Source: Deltaproteobacteria bacterium RIFOXYA12_FULL_61_11 (GTDB lineage Bacteria; Bdellovibrionota_F; JAHFAK01; YA12-FULL-61-11). Taken from it: DNA of 7,175 bases. Under the pieces are notes generated by a model. The model made no database searches. It saw only the letters and a program-made list of their open reading frames with translations, and was not told the origin of the DNA. Position numbers and translations under genes: made by a program. Each line of letters opens with the position of its first letter. Within the stretch, counting starts at the first letter, position 1. Positions 2,289-7,175 of the stretch are shown here, one piece after another. Location: contig MGSU01000041.1 in assembly GCA_001799195.1 (NCBI GenBank), positions 1 through 7,175 of the forward strand. Reading direction: 5' to 3'.

Positions 2289-2768
2289 ATGACCTACTTC
2301 GTTCGACCGACCATCCTCGTGCTCCTCGCCTTCTTCCTTTCCGCCTCCTCTTTCAAGGAAGGCATGGACCACGGGCGCTATGCCAAGAAACTCGAGGGCA
2401 AGCTGCTGCAGGTCGTTGCCGGCGATAAAGATGAATTGTCCGGGTACCAACAATTCCTGCGCGAGATGGACTACGATCCAACCATCAAGACCTTCGTCGA
2501 TCGCAACGGCCAGCCCCAATACCTGAAGCTGCTCCAGGTCAACGAAGTGGAATTCTATTACACCACGACCAAGAAGCGGCACCGGTTCCTCCGCTCCATG
2601 ACCAAGCTCGAGAGCGTCTTGCAGGAAAGTGCCGACCTCGACGATGCAGCTCTCGCGGCGCTGAGCGGAGCTCCCCCTCCGCCACCGCTCCCGAAAACCA
2701 TGACCGAGGAACACCGTCCCGCACCGCCTCCAGCTCCCCAGGCACCCCCAGCGGAGACAAAGCCATGA
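2289..2768 (+). CDS. Small exported protein with proline-rich C-terminal tail, unknown function
   Basis: A 159-residue protein of no family I recognise. It starts with a signal peptide or membrane anchor (MTYFVRP, a hydrophobic core to about residue 19, small residues SASS). A charged, probably folded part follows (about 24-125), notable for Tyr and Lys/Arg, for example FYYTTTKKRHRFLRSM (89-104). The tail (about 128-159) is rich in Pro and Ala (PPPPPLP, APPPAPQAPP), a low-complexity extension typical of envelope-spanning or wall-contacting proteins. The ATG at 2289 has GGAG about nine bases upstream. It is the first gene of the run after tRNA-Leu, with no terminator or clear separate promoter in the 52 bases between them. 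Its stop overlaps the next start in ATGA, so the two exported proteins are probably made together. Confidence 0.75.
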   Translation: MTYFVRPTILVLLAFFLSASSFKEGMDHGRYAKKLEGKLLQVVAGDKDELSGYQQFLREMDYDPTIKTFVDRNGQPQYLKLLQVNEVEFYYTTTKKRHRFLRSMTKLESVLQESADLDDAALAALSGAPPPPPLPKTMTEEHRPAPPPAPQAPPAETKP

Positions 2769-3550
2769 ACCGCCTCTTCGTCCTGACGATGCTGCTCGTG
2801 GCTGCCCGGACCTCGGCCATGGATACCTCGCAGCCGACGTGTGCAAACCCCAGCTACCTCAAACCCGGGGCCGCCTTCTCCACGATCCACGTCGCGGGCG
2901 TGGGCATCGGCAGCGCTGACCTGGTCAGTACCGACGGAACCGCCTTGTACATCCGCTTCTATGACAGCGGCAACAACGAGGTCTCGTACCTCACCATCGA
3001 TACCTCGAGCGGAACTCTGCCGTTGCGCACCGGGGCGAGCGACCCGACTCTGCTGTCCCTGTGCGCCTTTACCGGTGGGATCACCTCCTTCGAAGTGCTC
3101 GACCTCTCCATCCAGGCCGATGCGGCAACCCCGGAGGGCGAGTACGGTATCGGCATCGGTGAACCGCCGTACATGGGTGGAGCCAAGATCAAGGTTTCGA
3201 TGACCGAGCCGGTGACGCCGGTCACCCCACCGCCGGTCGATCCCGGTGACCCGAGCACCGACCCGACCACCCCGACCACCCCGACCACCCCAACTACCCC
3301 GACTACCCCGACTACCCCAACTACCCCGACCACGCCTGGTACCGACACCGGCTCGACCATCACGACGCCGACCGGTACTTCGCCGTGTCCCGGTGGGGCG
3401 CCCATGCCCTGCCTGGGGGTCGAGGACCAGGGTTGCGGTTTCTCCGTGGGTTTGCATCGTCCGAGCCTCAGCCCCGCGATGCTCCTGGCCCTGGGACTCG
3501 TCCTCGGCGCCTTTCTCCGGCGTTTCTCCCGTCGTTCCTCACAACGGTGA
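2765..3550 (+). CDS. Exported Pro-Thr-repeat protein with MYXO-CTERM-like C-terminal sorting tail
   Basis: A 261-residue protein predicted at the cell surface. Residues 1-19 are a signal peptide (hydrophobic core, then ARTSA). Residues about 20-147 look like a single beta-rich domain, with Cys26 and Cys100 able to form a disulfide; the domain is not recognised. A Pro/Thr linker follows (148-205) containing eight exact PTT units (167-190). Next come a Cys-bearing stretch (Cys208, Cys216), then GCGFSVG (223-229), a hydrophobic helix (about 236-251) and a basic end RRFSRR. The order Cys motif, TM helix, Arg cluster at the very C-terminus is that of MYXO-CTERM-type sorting tails, processed and anchored by a dedicated intramembrane protease. 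That is known for the class and inferred here. The start overlaps the upstream stop by 4 bases, and the stop lies 3 bases before the maf start. Confidence 0.75.
   Translation: MNRLFVLTMLLVAARTSAMDTSQPTCANPSYLKPGAAFSTIHVAGVGIGSADLVSTDGTALYIRFYDSGNNEVSYLTIDTSSGTLPLRTGASDPTLLSLCAFTGGITSFEVLDLSIQADAATPEGEYGIGIGEPPYMGGAKIKVSMTEPVTPVTPPPVDPGDPSTDPTTPTTPTTPTTPTTPTTPTTPTTPGTDTGSTITTPTGTSPCPGGAPMPCLGVEDQGCGFSVGLHRPSLSPAMLLALGLVLGAFLRRFSRRSSQR
3263..3334 (+). repeat. Eight 9-bp tandem units encoding Pro-Thr-Thr
   Basis: Eight consecutive 9-base units all encode PTT. Units 1-3 are CCGACCACC, units 4 and 7 CCAACTACC, units 5 and 6 CCGACTACC, and unit 8 CCGACCACG. The variants fall in blocks, as expected from stepwise duplication by slippage. 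The unit length is a multiple of three, so copy-number changes alter linker length without breaking the frame. Confidence 0.95.
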
Positions 3551-3553
3551 GCA

Positions 3554-4165
3554 GTGGGAACCCTCCACCAACACCTCCCCCTCGTCCTCGGAAGCTCCTC
3601 GGCCCGCCGCCGGGAACTGCTCACCGGTCTCGCCTTGACCTTCGAGGTGACGAGCGCCGACCTCGACGAGAGCGAGTTGGCGGACGAACCCCCAACCGGG
3701 TACGTCGTGCGTATGGCCCGCGAGAAGGCTGCCGCACTTGCGCAGGACCCTCGAAAAGAGCCCCCTGCGATCCTCCTGACCGCCGATACGATCGTGGTTC
3801 ATGAGGGCGCGATCCTGCATAAACCCATCGATCGGGACGACGGGCGGCGCATCCTCCGCACCCTCGCCGGCCGTTGGCACGAGGTCCATACCGCCTACCA
3901 TCTCGACCTGTGGGATGGTCGGGAGCTCGATCGCTTGGTCACGACGAGAGTGCGCTTCAAACGGATCTCCCCGGGCGAACTCGAGCACTACCTCGACCAG
4001 GATGAATACCGCGACAAGGCCGGCGGCTATGGTATCCAGGGTAAAGCCAACGTCCTGGTGCAAAGCCTCGAGGGGTCCTACACCAACGTCATCGGTCTGC
4101 CGCTGGCCGAACTGGTCGAGGATCTACTCTTCCTGGGAGCAATCTCGTACGATGCCGTGCGCTGA
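3554..4165 (+). CDS. maf: Maf-family nucleoside triphosphate pyrophosphatase, YhdE-like
   Basis: A cytoplasmic house-cleaning enzyme of 203 residues, the usual length. Maf proteins hydrolyse selected NTPs to NMP and pyrophosphate, and have been linked to keeping modified nucleotides out of nucleic acids and to septum formation. All family blocks are present: LGSSSARRRELL (12-23), TADTIVV (76-82) with the conserved Asp, HKP (89-91), TRVRF (131-135), DKAGGYGIQG (154-163) and GSYTNVIGLPL (174-184). The DKAG-GYGIQG form is that of the dTTP/UTP-preferring YhdE branch, not the YceF branch, so that specificity is inferred. The start is GTG at 3554, three bases after the previous stop. No ATG precedes the SSSARRR motif and no strong ribosome site is visible, so it probably depends on translational coupling. 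Its end overlaps the next gene by 14 bases. Confidence 0.93.
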   Translation: MGTLHQHLPLVLGSSSARRRELLTGLALTFEVTSADLDESELADEPPTGYVVRMAREKAAALAQDPRKEPPAILLTADTIVVHEGAILHKPIDRDDGRRILRTLAGRWHEVHTAYHLDLWDGRELDRLVTTRVRFKRISPGELEHYLDQDEYRDKAGGYGIQGKANVLVQSLEGSYTNVIGLPLAELVEDLLFLGAISYDAVR

Positions 4166-4883
4166 TACCGATCTCAAACGATTGCAAGCAGTTCGTGAAC
4201 GCATCGCCGTGGCCGCGCGGCGAGCGGGGAACTCCCCCGAAGGAATAACCCTGGTCGCCGTGAGCAAGGGGGTTTCCTACGAACGGCTGGCAGCAATCGC
4301 CCGAGAAGGGGGCCAACTCGATTTCGGCGAGAACTACGTCCAGGAAGCGATCCCCAAGATCAACGCCTTGGCCGACCTAGCCCTGCGTTGGCATTTCATC
4401 GGCCATCTCCAACGCAACAAGGTCCGGCAACTCCTGGGGTGCTGCACCCTGGTGCAGAGCCTGGACAGCGTCCGCCTGGCAGAGGAATTCGAACACCGCG
4501 GCGGCGCTGAGGGTGTCGTCACGAGGGTCCTGCTCCAGGTCAACCTGGCCCGGGAAGCGGGCAAACACGGTCTGGACGAAACCGAACTCCGTCCGTGCCT
4601 CGAGGCGTTGGCCGGTATGCCCCACCTCGAACCGATGGGCTTGATGCTGATCCCGCCCCTGGCCGCGTCGCCGGCCGAGAACAGGCCGCTCTACCGGAGC
4701 TTGCAGAAAGTGAGTGCAACCCTTCGCGAGCTGGGCTATCCTCTCGGCCATCACCTCTCGATGGGCATGAGCGACGACTTCGACCTCGCCGTGGAAGAAG
4801 GGGCGACCATCGTGCGGGTCGGTACGGCCGTGTTCGGACCGCGCCGCTATCCTCTGGTTGGACCCGGCAAGGAGGGACCATGA
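4152..4883 (+). CDS. yggS: YggS/PLPBP family pyridoxal-phosphate-binding protein
   Basis: A 243-residue single-domain TIM-barrel protein of the alanine-racemase N-terminal fold. Members bind pyridoxal 5'-phosphate without a known catalytic reaction and help keep PLP and amino-acid pools balanced. Visible signatures: LVAVSKG with the PLP lysine at Lys39, DFGENYVQEA (57-66), RWHFIGHLQRNK (79-90), QVNLAREAGKHG (129-140), GLM (163-165), LSMGMSDDF (202-210) and EGATIVRVGTAVFG (216-229), which holds the phosphate-binding residues. The ATG at 4152 overlaps maf by 14 bases. It leaves the normal short N-terminus MPCADTDLKRLQAV, whereas the much longer frame opening at 3801 would only read maf out of frame. 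The stop overlaps the divIVA start in ATGA. yggS next to divIVA-like and DUF167 genes is a recurrent arrangement across bacteria. Confidence 0.95.
   Translation: MPCADTDLKRLQAVRERIAVAARRAGNSPEGITLVAVSKGVSYERLAAIAREGGQLDFGENYVQEAIPKINALADLALRWHFIGHLQRNKVRQLLGCCTLVQSLDSVRLAEEFEHRGGAEGVVTRVLLQVNLAREAGKHGLDETELRPCLEALAGMPHLEPMGLMLIPPLAASPAENRPLYRSLQKVSATLRELGYPLGHHLSMGMSDDFDLAVEEGATIVRVGTAVFGPRRYPLVGPGKEGP
4871..4876 (+). promoter_or_regulatory. Strong ribosome binding site for divIVA
   Basis: GGAGGG ends three bases before the ATG at 4880. It lies inside the last codons of yggS, so divIVA has its own strong initiation signal besides the ATGA coupling. This supports ATG 4880 over the longer upstream frame. 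Confidence 0.65.
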
Positions 4884-5386
4884 AACTCACCCCCCTGGAC
4901 ATTCGCAATCACAAGACGAGGAAGGCCTATCGCGGCTATGCTTGCAAAGAGGTCGACCTCTTCTTGGATTTCGTGGCCAGCGAGTTCGAACGGTTGACCG
5001 GAGAACTCCACGAATTGCGTGATAACTACCGGCACATGGAGCGAGAACACGAGGCGCTCAAGCAGAAGGAGCGCGATCTCAGTCAGACCCTCCTCTACGC
5101 CAAAAACCTCCAGGAAGAGCTTCGCCGCAATGCCGAGAAGGAAGCAGAGTTGATCGTTTCCCAGGCCGAGTTGAAGGCCGATCGCATCGTGGAACAAGCC
5201 AACCAGAGACTCTCGGCCCTCCTCGACGAGATCCATGACCTCAAGGCCCAGCATCGCAGACTGCACGACGACCTGCGCGGCACATGCGAATCCTTCTTGC
5301 GTGTACTCTCCCTGTCGGCAAAAGAACAACAGGGTGAAGACGGCGTCGAGCGCAAGGTCGCGTTCCTCTCCGCGTACCATGACTGA
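4880..5386 (+). CDS. divIVA: DivIVA-family coiled-coil protein
   Basis: A 168-residue protein with the DivIVA opening MKLTPLDIRN, then KAYRGYACKEVDLFLDFV (15-32) and a long charged coiled coil (about 33-130). DivIVA proteins bind curved or septal membrane and recruit division, envelope-growth or polarity partners. In the Bacillus subtilis protein, Phe17 and Arg18 in the N-terminal turn insert into the membrane. The matching residues here are Tyr17 and Arg18, so the aromatic/basic pair is kept. The coil includes AKNLQEELRRNAEKEAELIV (74-93), typical of the second helix of the family, and a short C-terminal end (144-168) of unknown role. GGAGGG lies just before the ATG at 4880, the clearest ribosome site in the operon, and the start overlaps the yggS stop by 4 bases. 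The stop overlaps the DUF167 gene by 8 bases. Which partners it recruits is unknown. Confidence 0.9.
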   Translation: MKLTPLDIRNHKTRKAYRGYACKEVDLFLDFVASEFERLTGELHELRDNYRHMEREHEALKQKERDLSQTLLYAKNLQEELRRNAEKEAELIVSQAELKADRIVEQANQRLSALLDEIHDLKAQHRRLHDDLRGTCESFLRVLSLSAKEQQGEDGVERKVAFLSAYHD

Positions 5387-5681
5387 TTTCTTGGCACCCG
5401 AGCATGATGGTCGACTGCGCCTGCGCGTGTACCTGCAGCCCGGAGCCTCCATCAACAAGATTGTCGGGTTGCAGGGCGATGAGCTGAAGATTGCGATCCG
5501 TTCCCCGGCCGTCGAGAATCGCGCCAACGAGGAGCTGATCCGTTACCTTGCCAAACGTCTCGGTCTGGCCCGTTCCAAGGTCAACTTGGTGCAGGGTCAG
5601 ACCTGCCGGCACAAGGTTCTGCGTTTGGACGAAAGCAACGCCGACCTGATGCGCGAGCGGTTGATCCTCCCCGAACCATGA
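5379..5681 (+). CDS. yggU: DUF167 / YggU family protein
   Basis: A 100-residue cytoplasmic protein of the DUF167 family, with unknown biochemical function. Family landmarks are LRLRVYLQPGASINKIVG (13-30) with the PGAS loop, DELKIAIRSPAVENRANEEL (34-53), where ENRAN replaces the common DGKAN, then LAKRLGLARSKVNLVQG (57-73) and RHKVLRL (77-83). I chose ATG 5379 because it gives the usual length and puts the first beta strand near the N-terminus. It overlaps the divIVA stop by 8 bases. The stop overlaps the next start in ATGA. Location after yggS and divIVA matches the common neighbourhood of this family. Confidence 0.9.
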   Translation: MTDFLAPEHDGRLRLRVYLQPGASINKIVGLQGDELKIAIRSPAVENRANEELIRYLAKRLGLARSKVNLVQGQTCRHKVLRLDESNADLMRERLILPEP

Positions 5682-6751
5682 CTCCCTCCAAGGCCCGAGC
5701 CCTCCTCCTCGTCCTTGTCCTGCTCTTCGTCCCGGCCCGGGTAATTTCCTCGCCGATAGAGGAAATCCCCTTTCCTCTCGCCACCGTGGCCGTGCTTGGG
5801 GAAGCTCGCTTCACCGCCGACACCGAGGATCTCAAGGTCATTCACGCCGATCCGATCCTCGGTCGATACCGCTCCCTGCTCGCCGGTCTGTTGGCACAAC
5901 ACCGTCTCGAACCGCTTAAGGCGCTGCTCCAACTCGGTGGTCTGGTCTCGAGGGGGGACCACAGCCTGCAATGGGCCGTACTGCGCGACGAGTTCTTCGA
6001 GCGGCTCCGCCGTCAGGGCATCGCAACGATACTGCTCCCCGGAGAGCACGAACGGCGTTCTCGGGGCACCTTTCTGTTTTCCAAAGACCTCGAACTCGAA
6101 GAACTCGAGCGAACCCTCGGCGCAGCGTTCCCCGTCTATACCTATCCGGGGGTAAGCGTGGCCCTCCGCCACGGGTTCCAGGAGCTGGCGGGGCTGGTCC
6201 TGATCTTCCTCAACAGCACCCTGCCCGTGGCCGAGCAGGTCAAATACCTCGACCTGATGCACGAACGCTATCCGGGTCGAGGAAAACTCGTCTTCACGCA
6301 CCAGTTGCCCTTCCCCCTCGCCGGCAACCGTTACGGTCACTATTTCCGAGCCCCTCCCGCGCTCTCGGCCTGGGCTCCCCGGCTGGCCGCATGGAACCTC
6401 CTCGCTGTCTTCTCCGCCGATAGGCGGGTTCAGGCCCGGTTTCGTTTCTCGACCCTGCCGACGTGGTTCCTGGCAGCGGGTCCGCTCGATGGACTCCCAG
6501 CCGCGCCTCTCGAGGCCGAGGTGCTCCGGAAACAGTTACGCTGGTACCTGCGCCGCACCGAGCTCGGCCCCCCTGGGCTCGAACTCGACTACAAGGTAGC
6601 GGCGACCGGTTGTGGCTATGTACTGCGCCTCTTCACCGACCGGGTAGAGGTCCTGCCCCTCCTGCCGGAGGGAGGAACCCCCGCGGACCCGGATCGCAGA
6701 GGAGTATTGACCCTTCCGATGACTGTACCGAGGTCGGACTCCGGGGCTTGA
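5678..6751 (+). CDS. Exported protein resembling a calcineurin-type metallophosphoesterase with degraded active site
   Basis: A 357-residue protein with a signal peptide or anchor (ARALLLVLVLLFVPARVISS, 6-25). The body follows the layout of purple-acid-phosphatase-like phosphoesterases, but expected metal ligands are replaced. The first D-x-H strand appears as VAVLGEARF (37-45). The G-D-x-x-x-x-G motif appears as LGGLVSRGD (86-94). GNHD/E appears as PGEHE (121-125), followed later by LIFLNST (175-181), EQVKYLD (186-192) and LVFTHQLPF (204-212). The last G-H-x-H appears as FSADRR (245-250), followed by WFLAAGPLDG (263-272). Fold spacing is kept while the Asp, Asn and His ligands are mostly gone, so it is probably a non-catalytic binding or structural protein outside the cytoplasm. 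The assignment rests on motif order alone; an unrelated family remains possible. It overlaps the DUF167 stop by 4 bases. Confidence 0.6.
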   Translation: MTPSKARALLLVLVLLFVPARVISSPIEEIPFPLATVAVLGEARFTADTEDLKVIHADPILGRYRSLLAGLLAQHRLEPLKALLQLGGLVSRGDHSLQWAVLRDEFFERLRRQGIATILLPGEHERRSRGTFLFSKDLELEELERTLGAAFPVYTYPGVSVALRHGFQELAGLVLIFLNSTLPVAEQVKYLDLMHERYPGRGKLVFTHQLPFPLAGNRYGHYFRAPPALSAWAPRLAAWNLLAVFSADRRVQARFRFSTLPTWFLAAGPLDGLPAAPLEAEVLRKQLRWYLRRTELGPPGLELDYKVAATGCGYVLRLFTDRVEVLPLLPEGGTPADPDRRGVLTLPMTVPRSDSGA

Positions 6752-6754
6752 TGA

Positions 6755-7175
6755 ATGATGAAGGGAGCAATCGAAAAGGTGTCTTGTGAAAACCGGGTCC
6801 GGTTAGCGTCGCTGTGGTTTCCCTTGTCTTACCTGAAAAAAGTCCGAACGAGCACTGGGTTGACGATGGCCATCGTCGTTTGGACTTTCCTGGTCACCCT
6901 GAGTAGGGCCTTGCGCAAGCCGAATGATTTTGCCGAGGCGCACTGGTTGCTCTCCTACCGGTTCGGTTTCATGAAGCGTGGTCTGCTCGGATCGCTGGGT
7001 GGCGTGGTAACGGAAGCCGGAGGTCCGAAGATCACGCCCGAGGTGATCGTCGGCCTCTCCTCCCTGGTGTATTGCGGTTTGTATGCTGCCTTTCTTTACC
7101 AGATCATCCTCGTCTTACGTCGGCAGCAGGATCGATCCAGCGTCGTACCGCTGGTACTCGTCTTTGCGAGTTCTC
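6755..7175 (+). CDS. Polytopic membrane protein, N-terminal part, cut by right edge
   Basis: The frame is open from ATG 6755 to the window end (140 codons) with no stop. After a basic cytoplasmic-type N-terminus (1-34) comes a first membrane helix (about 35-52). A loop then reads RKPNDFAEAHWLLSYRFG and FMKRGLLGSL (54-81). A second helix spans about 97-121 (rich in Leu, Val, Tyr), followed by a basic turn LRRQQDRSS and the start of a third helix (130-140). The loop pattern D-F-x-x-A-H-W-L-x-x-Y-x-x-G-F-x-x-R-G-L-x-G resembles a conserved block I associate with large uncharacterised multi-pass membrane proteins, some GT-C-like; the function is not established. The gap to the upstream stop is 3 bases. 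GTG 6779, preceded by AAGGGAG, is a possible alternative start that would still keep every helix. Confidence 0.7.
   Translation, partial: MMKGAIEKVSCENRVRLASLWFPLSYLKKVRTSTGLTMAIVVWTFLVTLSRALRKPNDFAEAHWLLSYRFGFMKRGLLGSLGGVVTEAGGPKITPEVIVGLSSLVYCGLYAAFLYQIILVLRRQQDRSSVVPLVLVFASS

Follow-up and report, generated by a model that had tools for sequence, protein, structure and literature searches.

A divergent metallophosphoesterase relative with a predicted dead active site at the end of a maf-yggS-divIVA-DUF167 gene string

The window, i.e., the whole stretch of 7,175 bases analyzed here, contains an open reading frame (5678–6751, + strand) whose product (hereafter pseudo-MPE; MPE, metallophosphoesterase) is very probably a degenerate relative of the MPEs. 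The reading that we favor, and regard as likely, is a lineage-specific exported protein that has lost the two-metal centre and acts by binding. The window is the beginning of an 18,239-base contig; the draft assembly to which it belongs (G000) comprises 4.6 Mb at 87% completeness. The lineage is uncultured and its phylum is barely sampled; one other genome of the phylum (G001) was compared.

Gene string, coding quality, and export signal

The maf, yggS, divIVA, DUF167, and pseudo-MPE genes are all on the + strand, and every gene overlaps its successor. The divIVA/DUF167 overlap comprises eight bases (5379–5386), and the junction between DUF167 and pseudo-MPE is an ATGA in which the DUF167 stop codon occupies 5679–5681. 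Both this ATGA-joined frame and the maf/yggS/divIVA gene setting named in the initial annotation were recovered, with maf and yggS upstream of divIVA. However, pseudo-MPE does not come right after divIVA as had been stated; it follows DUF167, which is itself directly preceded by divIVA. The main features are as follows.

3554–4165, + strand: maf nucleotide pyrophosphatase (PF02545, E = 8.3e-53)
4152–4883, + strand: yggS, PLP-binding protein (PF01168, E = 2.8e-17; start inferred)
4880–5386, + strand: divIVA (PF05103, E = 1.3e-32; start computed)
5379–5681, + strand: DUF167, YggU family (PF02594, E = 5.4e-23; ATGA overlap with pseudo-MPE)
5678–6751, + strand: pseudo-MPE, predicted exported MPE-fold pseudoenzyme of 357 aa (intact ORF; codon usage; MPE profile 22.4 bits)
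5678–5752, + strand: signal-peptide-like N-terminus, residues 1 to about 25 (hydropathy; MTPSKARALLLVLVLLFVPARVISS)
5798–5809, + strand: motif I, G41-E42-A43-R44 (D to E), aligned to GD of ligand-keeping relatives
5936–5941, + strand: motif II, G87-G88 (bridging Asp to Gly), aligned to an invariant GD
6041–6052, + strand: motif III, G122-E123-H124-E125 (Asn to Glu; catalytic His kept), aligned to GNH[DE]
6299–6301, + strand: motif IV, His208 (kept), aligned to an invariant His
6416–6427, + strand: motif V, A247-D248-R249-R250 replacing GHDH (same register in MAFFT and hhalign)
6755–7175, + strand: start of a 460-aa membrane protein (ORF runs on to 8137; no Pfam family)

The codon usage of pseudo-MPE correlates with that of maf/yggS/divIVA at 0.82 (best reverse frame, 0.63), and GC3 is 0.74 in both halves of the gene. 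Because the frame is intact and codon usage is native in both halves, the gene is not a product of simple decay; with five separate ligand positions changed as well, recent decay or sequencing error was rejected. For the export signal, a hydrophobic, signal-like stretch spans residues 5–20, and the top hydrophobic 19-residue window begins at residue 9 (mean KD 2.3). Hydropathy and composition fit a signal peptide, and hydropathy over the 357 residues revealed no second strong transmembrane segment. These features agree with the earlier description of the protein as exported, which is a prediction.

Elsewhere in the window, a secreted protein encoded at 2765–3550 (+ strand) without a match among Pfam or NCBIfam families carries a PTTPTTP repeat, and its C-terminus (CGFSVG...LALGLVLGAFLRRFSRR) resembles a GlyGly/MYXO-CTERM-type sorting tail. 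The PTT repeat is encoded by a 9-base tandem repeat in eight copies (3262–3333). A perfect 27-base tandem repeat (two copies, 273–337) lies where no clear gene is seen, and a tRNA-Leu gene (anticodon taa; 2152–2236, + strand) is located between a hydrolase gene (575–2056) and the ORF at 2289.

Homology to MPEs, predicted fold, and active-site positions

For pseudo-MPE, no Pfam family was matched up to E = 1 and the PF00149 gathering cut-off was not reached; NCBIfam and a phmmer search against PDB sequences gave no MPE match either. A profile of 43 MPE domains, iterated from one MPE hit with the window sequence left out, gives the protein 22.4 bits (E = 2.1e-4 for Z = 50,000, or about 4e-9 when one test is counted). 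On this profile, 4,000 shuffled sequences peaked at 6.2 bits; among 2,694 other ORFs, only three MPEs that the same genome encodes and that were outside the profile scored higher than 6.2 bits. Profile-profile comparison, a check suggested in the initial annotation, also connects the protein to this family, as hhalign against 22 MPEs aligned residues 77–255, covering motifs II–V (P = 2.8e-6, probability 88%). A broader, more mixed MPE profile gives a lower score (11.1 bits), so the protein appears nearest to the Fn3/purple-acid-phosphatase-like group. Taken together, these results are good evidence for a relationship with MPEs beyond chance, in a protein that is very divergent.

A whole-protein search of 386 genomes produced weak hits, among which three loci (L019, L020, and L026) have long open frames aligned over several motifs. 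Their products are exported-looking, with an N-terminal extension, an MPE domain, and motifs in matching register. The weak single-sequence hits are genuine MPEs that share the motif register, with the pairs (relative/pseudo-MPE) GD/GG, GNHE/GEHE, and HQP/THQ. In about 980 distinct genomes, a search sensitive enough to reach canonical MPEs found no ortholog, but only canonical MPEs, short partial matches, and hits with stop codons. Neither close homologs with the same substitutions nor close homologs with all metal ligands, both of which the initial annotation had raised, were found in these genomes. Searches with the whole protein in the genome-contig and viral-contig collections also gave no match. 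Two candidates were rejected: a Shinella plasmid hit is a chance match (residues 50–132 only, in a 145-aa open frame without MPE motif residues), and a match to potassium-transporting ATPase subunit B (E = 0.002) is short, lies outside most motifs, and is not an MPE.

AlphaFold prediction without an alignment produced no usable fold (pLDDT 33). With an input alignment of 18 MPEs from viral-contig loci, the model has the MPE strand order (pTM 0.62, mean pLDDT 59). Ten-residue blocks containing most core strands average 75–89, and residues 131–160 and 251–310 are poor. The VIA-align Z scores of this model are 18.0 for Lmo2642, 17.9 for Rv0805, 17.1 for rat purple acid phosphatase, and 15.7 for GAP50; Vps29 was low-ranked in the fold search. 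The comparison with purple acid phosphatases and other PF00149 folds envisaged in the initial annotation gave Z of 15.7–18, but at a mean pLDDT of 59; for the four-layer alpha/beta MPE fold, the model is support rather than independent proof, because the MPE input alignment partly imposes it.

Five ligand positions are changed in pseudo-MPE (D to E42, D to G88, N to E123, H to D248, and H to R250), and the catalytic H124 and the motif IV ligand H208 are unchanged. The changed positions are invariant in 22 relatives, and all nine further MPEs of the genome retain GD and GNH(D/E). Within the ligand set of an active two-metal MPE (Asp, bridging Asp, Asn, His, His plus His), only H208 is kept. With the Asp of motif I, the bridging Asp, the motif III Asn, and the two motif V histidines lost or changed, two-metal catalysis is judged from these residues to be very unlikely.

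Compared with the initial annotation, the change of GD to GG at residues 87–88 stands, whereas other motifs need refinement. Ligand residues are changed as had been reported, at five positions, but the retained His124 and His208 had been missed. GEHE is present at 122–125 in place of GNHD, but its final Glu is ordinary because close active-looking relatives carry GNHE. A change of GHxH to SADR had been placed at 246–249; motif V is indeed altered, but the register was off by one. MAFFT and hhalign agree on ADRR at 247–250, and its two histidines therefore become Asp and Arg. A D-x-H had been reported as lacking in the first strand; motif I is nevertheless present as G41-E42-A43-R44, with Glu in place of Asp. 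As a whole, the designation of a metallophosphoesterase pseudoenzyme is backed by the profile, profile-profile, and fold evidence and by the fact that the bridging Asp has been lost along with most of the remaining ligands.

With most metal-binding residues changed, pseudo-MPE is probably a binding protein and not an enzyme. Its ancestor would have been a secreted, purple-acid-phosphatase-like MPE whose two-metal catalytic centre was subsequently lost. The present protein would be exported to the periplasm or cell surface and perform no two-metal catalysis. Metal site 1 may be empty, with side chains close to E42 (for example R250 and R44) taking up the space, and a pocket with H124, H208, E123, and D248 may be kept as a binding surface. 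The putative ligand could be an anionic or phosphorylated molecule, or a partner protein. Placed last, after maf-yggS-divIVA-DUF167, pseudo-MPE is expected to be co-translated with DUF167. The searches found no close homolog that would show the substitutions in this predicted dead site to be conserved under selection.

Neighboring genes and alternative readings

The initial annotation raised the possibility of a previously undescribed protein working with the division or growth machinery, and the one-strand, overlapping maf-yggS-divIVA-DUF167-pseudo-MPE genes are compatible with a periplasmic partner of this type. Furthermore, GAP50, which has the purple-acid-phosphatase fold, acts as a membrane anchor (PMC8949495). 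However, the maf/yggS/divIVA/DUF167 neighborhood is widespread in bacteria without a detected MPE. Among 59 DivIVA loci from named genomes, yggS or DUF167 adjoins divIVA in many, and no MPE was detected near divIVA. Similarly, no MPE was detected beside DUF167 in 29 loci, some of which stop shortly past DUF167; divIVA is just upstream in 12 of the 29, which belong to different families, and the MPE profile used on these loci does detect the locus of the window. In G001, the gene order is maf-yggS-DUF167-proC, with neither divIVA nor an MPE at this locus (L015). Conserved linkage of pseudo-MPE with divIVA/DUF167 was thus not detected across the genomes compared. Moreover, if exported as predicted, pseudo-MPE could not be in direct contact with DivIVA, DUF167, YggS, and Maf, which are cytoplasmic. 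Being a single sequence without a homolog, the protein lends no support yet to the division claim. With no MPE detected beside the 88 DivIVA- or DUF167-centred loci, no ortholog in about 980 genomes, and different predicted locations, the suggestion was not upheld: the link to division is weak, as is the clue given by the position in a division-type string, and a periplasmic division or growth partner is improbable. A more specific version, in which pseudo-MPE is a bacterial GAP50 counterpart, i.e., an exported, metal-free scaffold of the purple-acid-phosphatase fold made with the divIVA/DUF167 cluster that has Arg side chains in place of metal 1 and would, within this phylum, couple the assembly of the envelope to division or polar growth, is very improbable. 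Rather than a part of the division machinery, pseudo-MPE is probably a lineage-specific addition to the gene string.

As a separate observation on the DivIVA loci, five that are mostly from genomes of the Riflebacteria type (L053, L054, L056, L057, and L059) have divIVA-DUF167 followed by a small membrane/coiled-coil protein of about 160 aa and then by a secreted protein, about 265 aa long and conserved, that carries an AWGS..H motif.

Downstream genes provide another possible context. The gene for the 460-aa membrane protein begins three bases past the pseudo-MPE stop, and the two may be in one transcript. The contig region 6755–17293 (L017) encodes two large membrane proteins without a Pfam family, a glycosyltransferase/radical SAM fusion, a second, B12-binding radical SAM protein, and a DegT aminotransferase, and is perhaps a surface glycan cluster. 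Pseudo-MPE could therefore be an envelope protein functionally tied to these membrane and glycan genes and located beside DUF167 by chance. The association was seen in no homolog elsewhere, and the downstream gene has a different composition by codon position (GC1 of 0.54 versus 0.73). This explanation is less likely than not, and it is compatible with an exported binding protein. A remodeled protein that still binds metal or is active would have one metal at site 2 (E123, H208, and D248), H124 as the general acid, and R250 standing in for metal 1; here the ligands are allotted to the two metal sites as is general for purple acid phosphatases and Mre11-type enzymes. Metal-capable residues do remain at three of four site 2 positions in the corrected register, and the catalytic His is kept. 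However, Gly stands in place of the bridging Asp and Glu in place of the motif I Asp, two Arg are found at site 1, and we know of no MPE that uses one site 2 metal with Arg in place of metal 1, which makes such an enzyme unlikely. Finally, an unrelated exported protein carrying a few MPE-like words would fit the negative Pfam, NCBIfam, and PDB sequence searches, but is scarcely credible given the shuffle and background controls, the hhalign result, and the consistent register over four motifs.

Relation to known systems

To our knowledge, pseudoenzymes of the MPE fold are mainly eukaryotic scaffolds. No description of a bacterial exported pseudo-MPE was found in the open-access literature, of which coverage was limited. 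The standard family models do not detect the protein, so similar cases may be more frequent than counts suggest. Pseudo-MPE represents a clear case of a pseudoenzyme, from a lineage about which little is known, yet one sequence only.

Compared with purple acid phosphatases and other PF00149 MPEs (1qfc; 2hy1, Rv0805; 2xmo, Lmo2642), pseudo-MPE has the same predicted fold and order of motifs I–V, shares His124 and His208, and is predicted to be secreted, as are many purple acid phosphatases. In contrast, it differs at five ligands including the bridging Asp, has no Fn3 domain, and shows only about 15–25% identity, under the Pfam cut-off. The best within-genome match is an exported MPE (L013; residues 3–125, motifs I–III, E = 2e-4 in a 12-sequence set), which retains D-T-Q, GD, and GNHD, whereas pseudo-MPE does not. 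In Vps29 and other inactive MPE-fold subunits, the fold serves binding. The same use of the fold is proposed here for pseudo-MPE, but Vps29-type subunits are small, cytosolic, and eukaryotic. In Plasmodium, GAP50 combines a purple-acid-phosphatase fold with a reported role as membrane anchor for a protein complex, and there are reports of acid phosphatase activity as well (PMC8949495). GAP50 (3tgh) is eukaryotic and membrane-anchored, and its likeness to the pseudo-MPE model (Z = 15.7) is one of fold.
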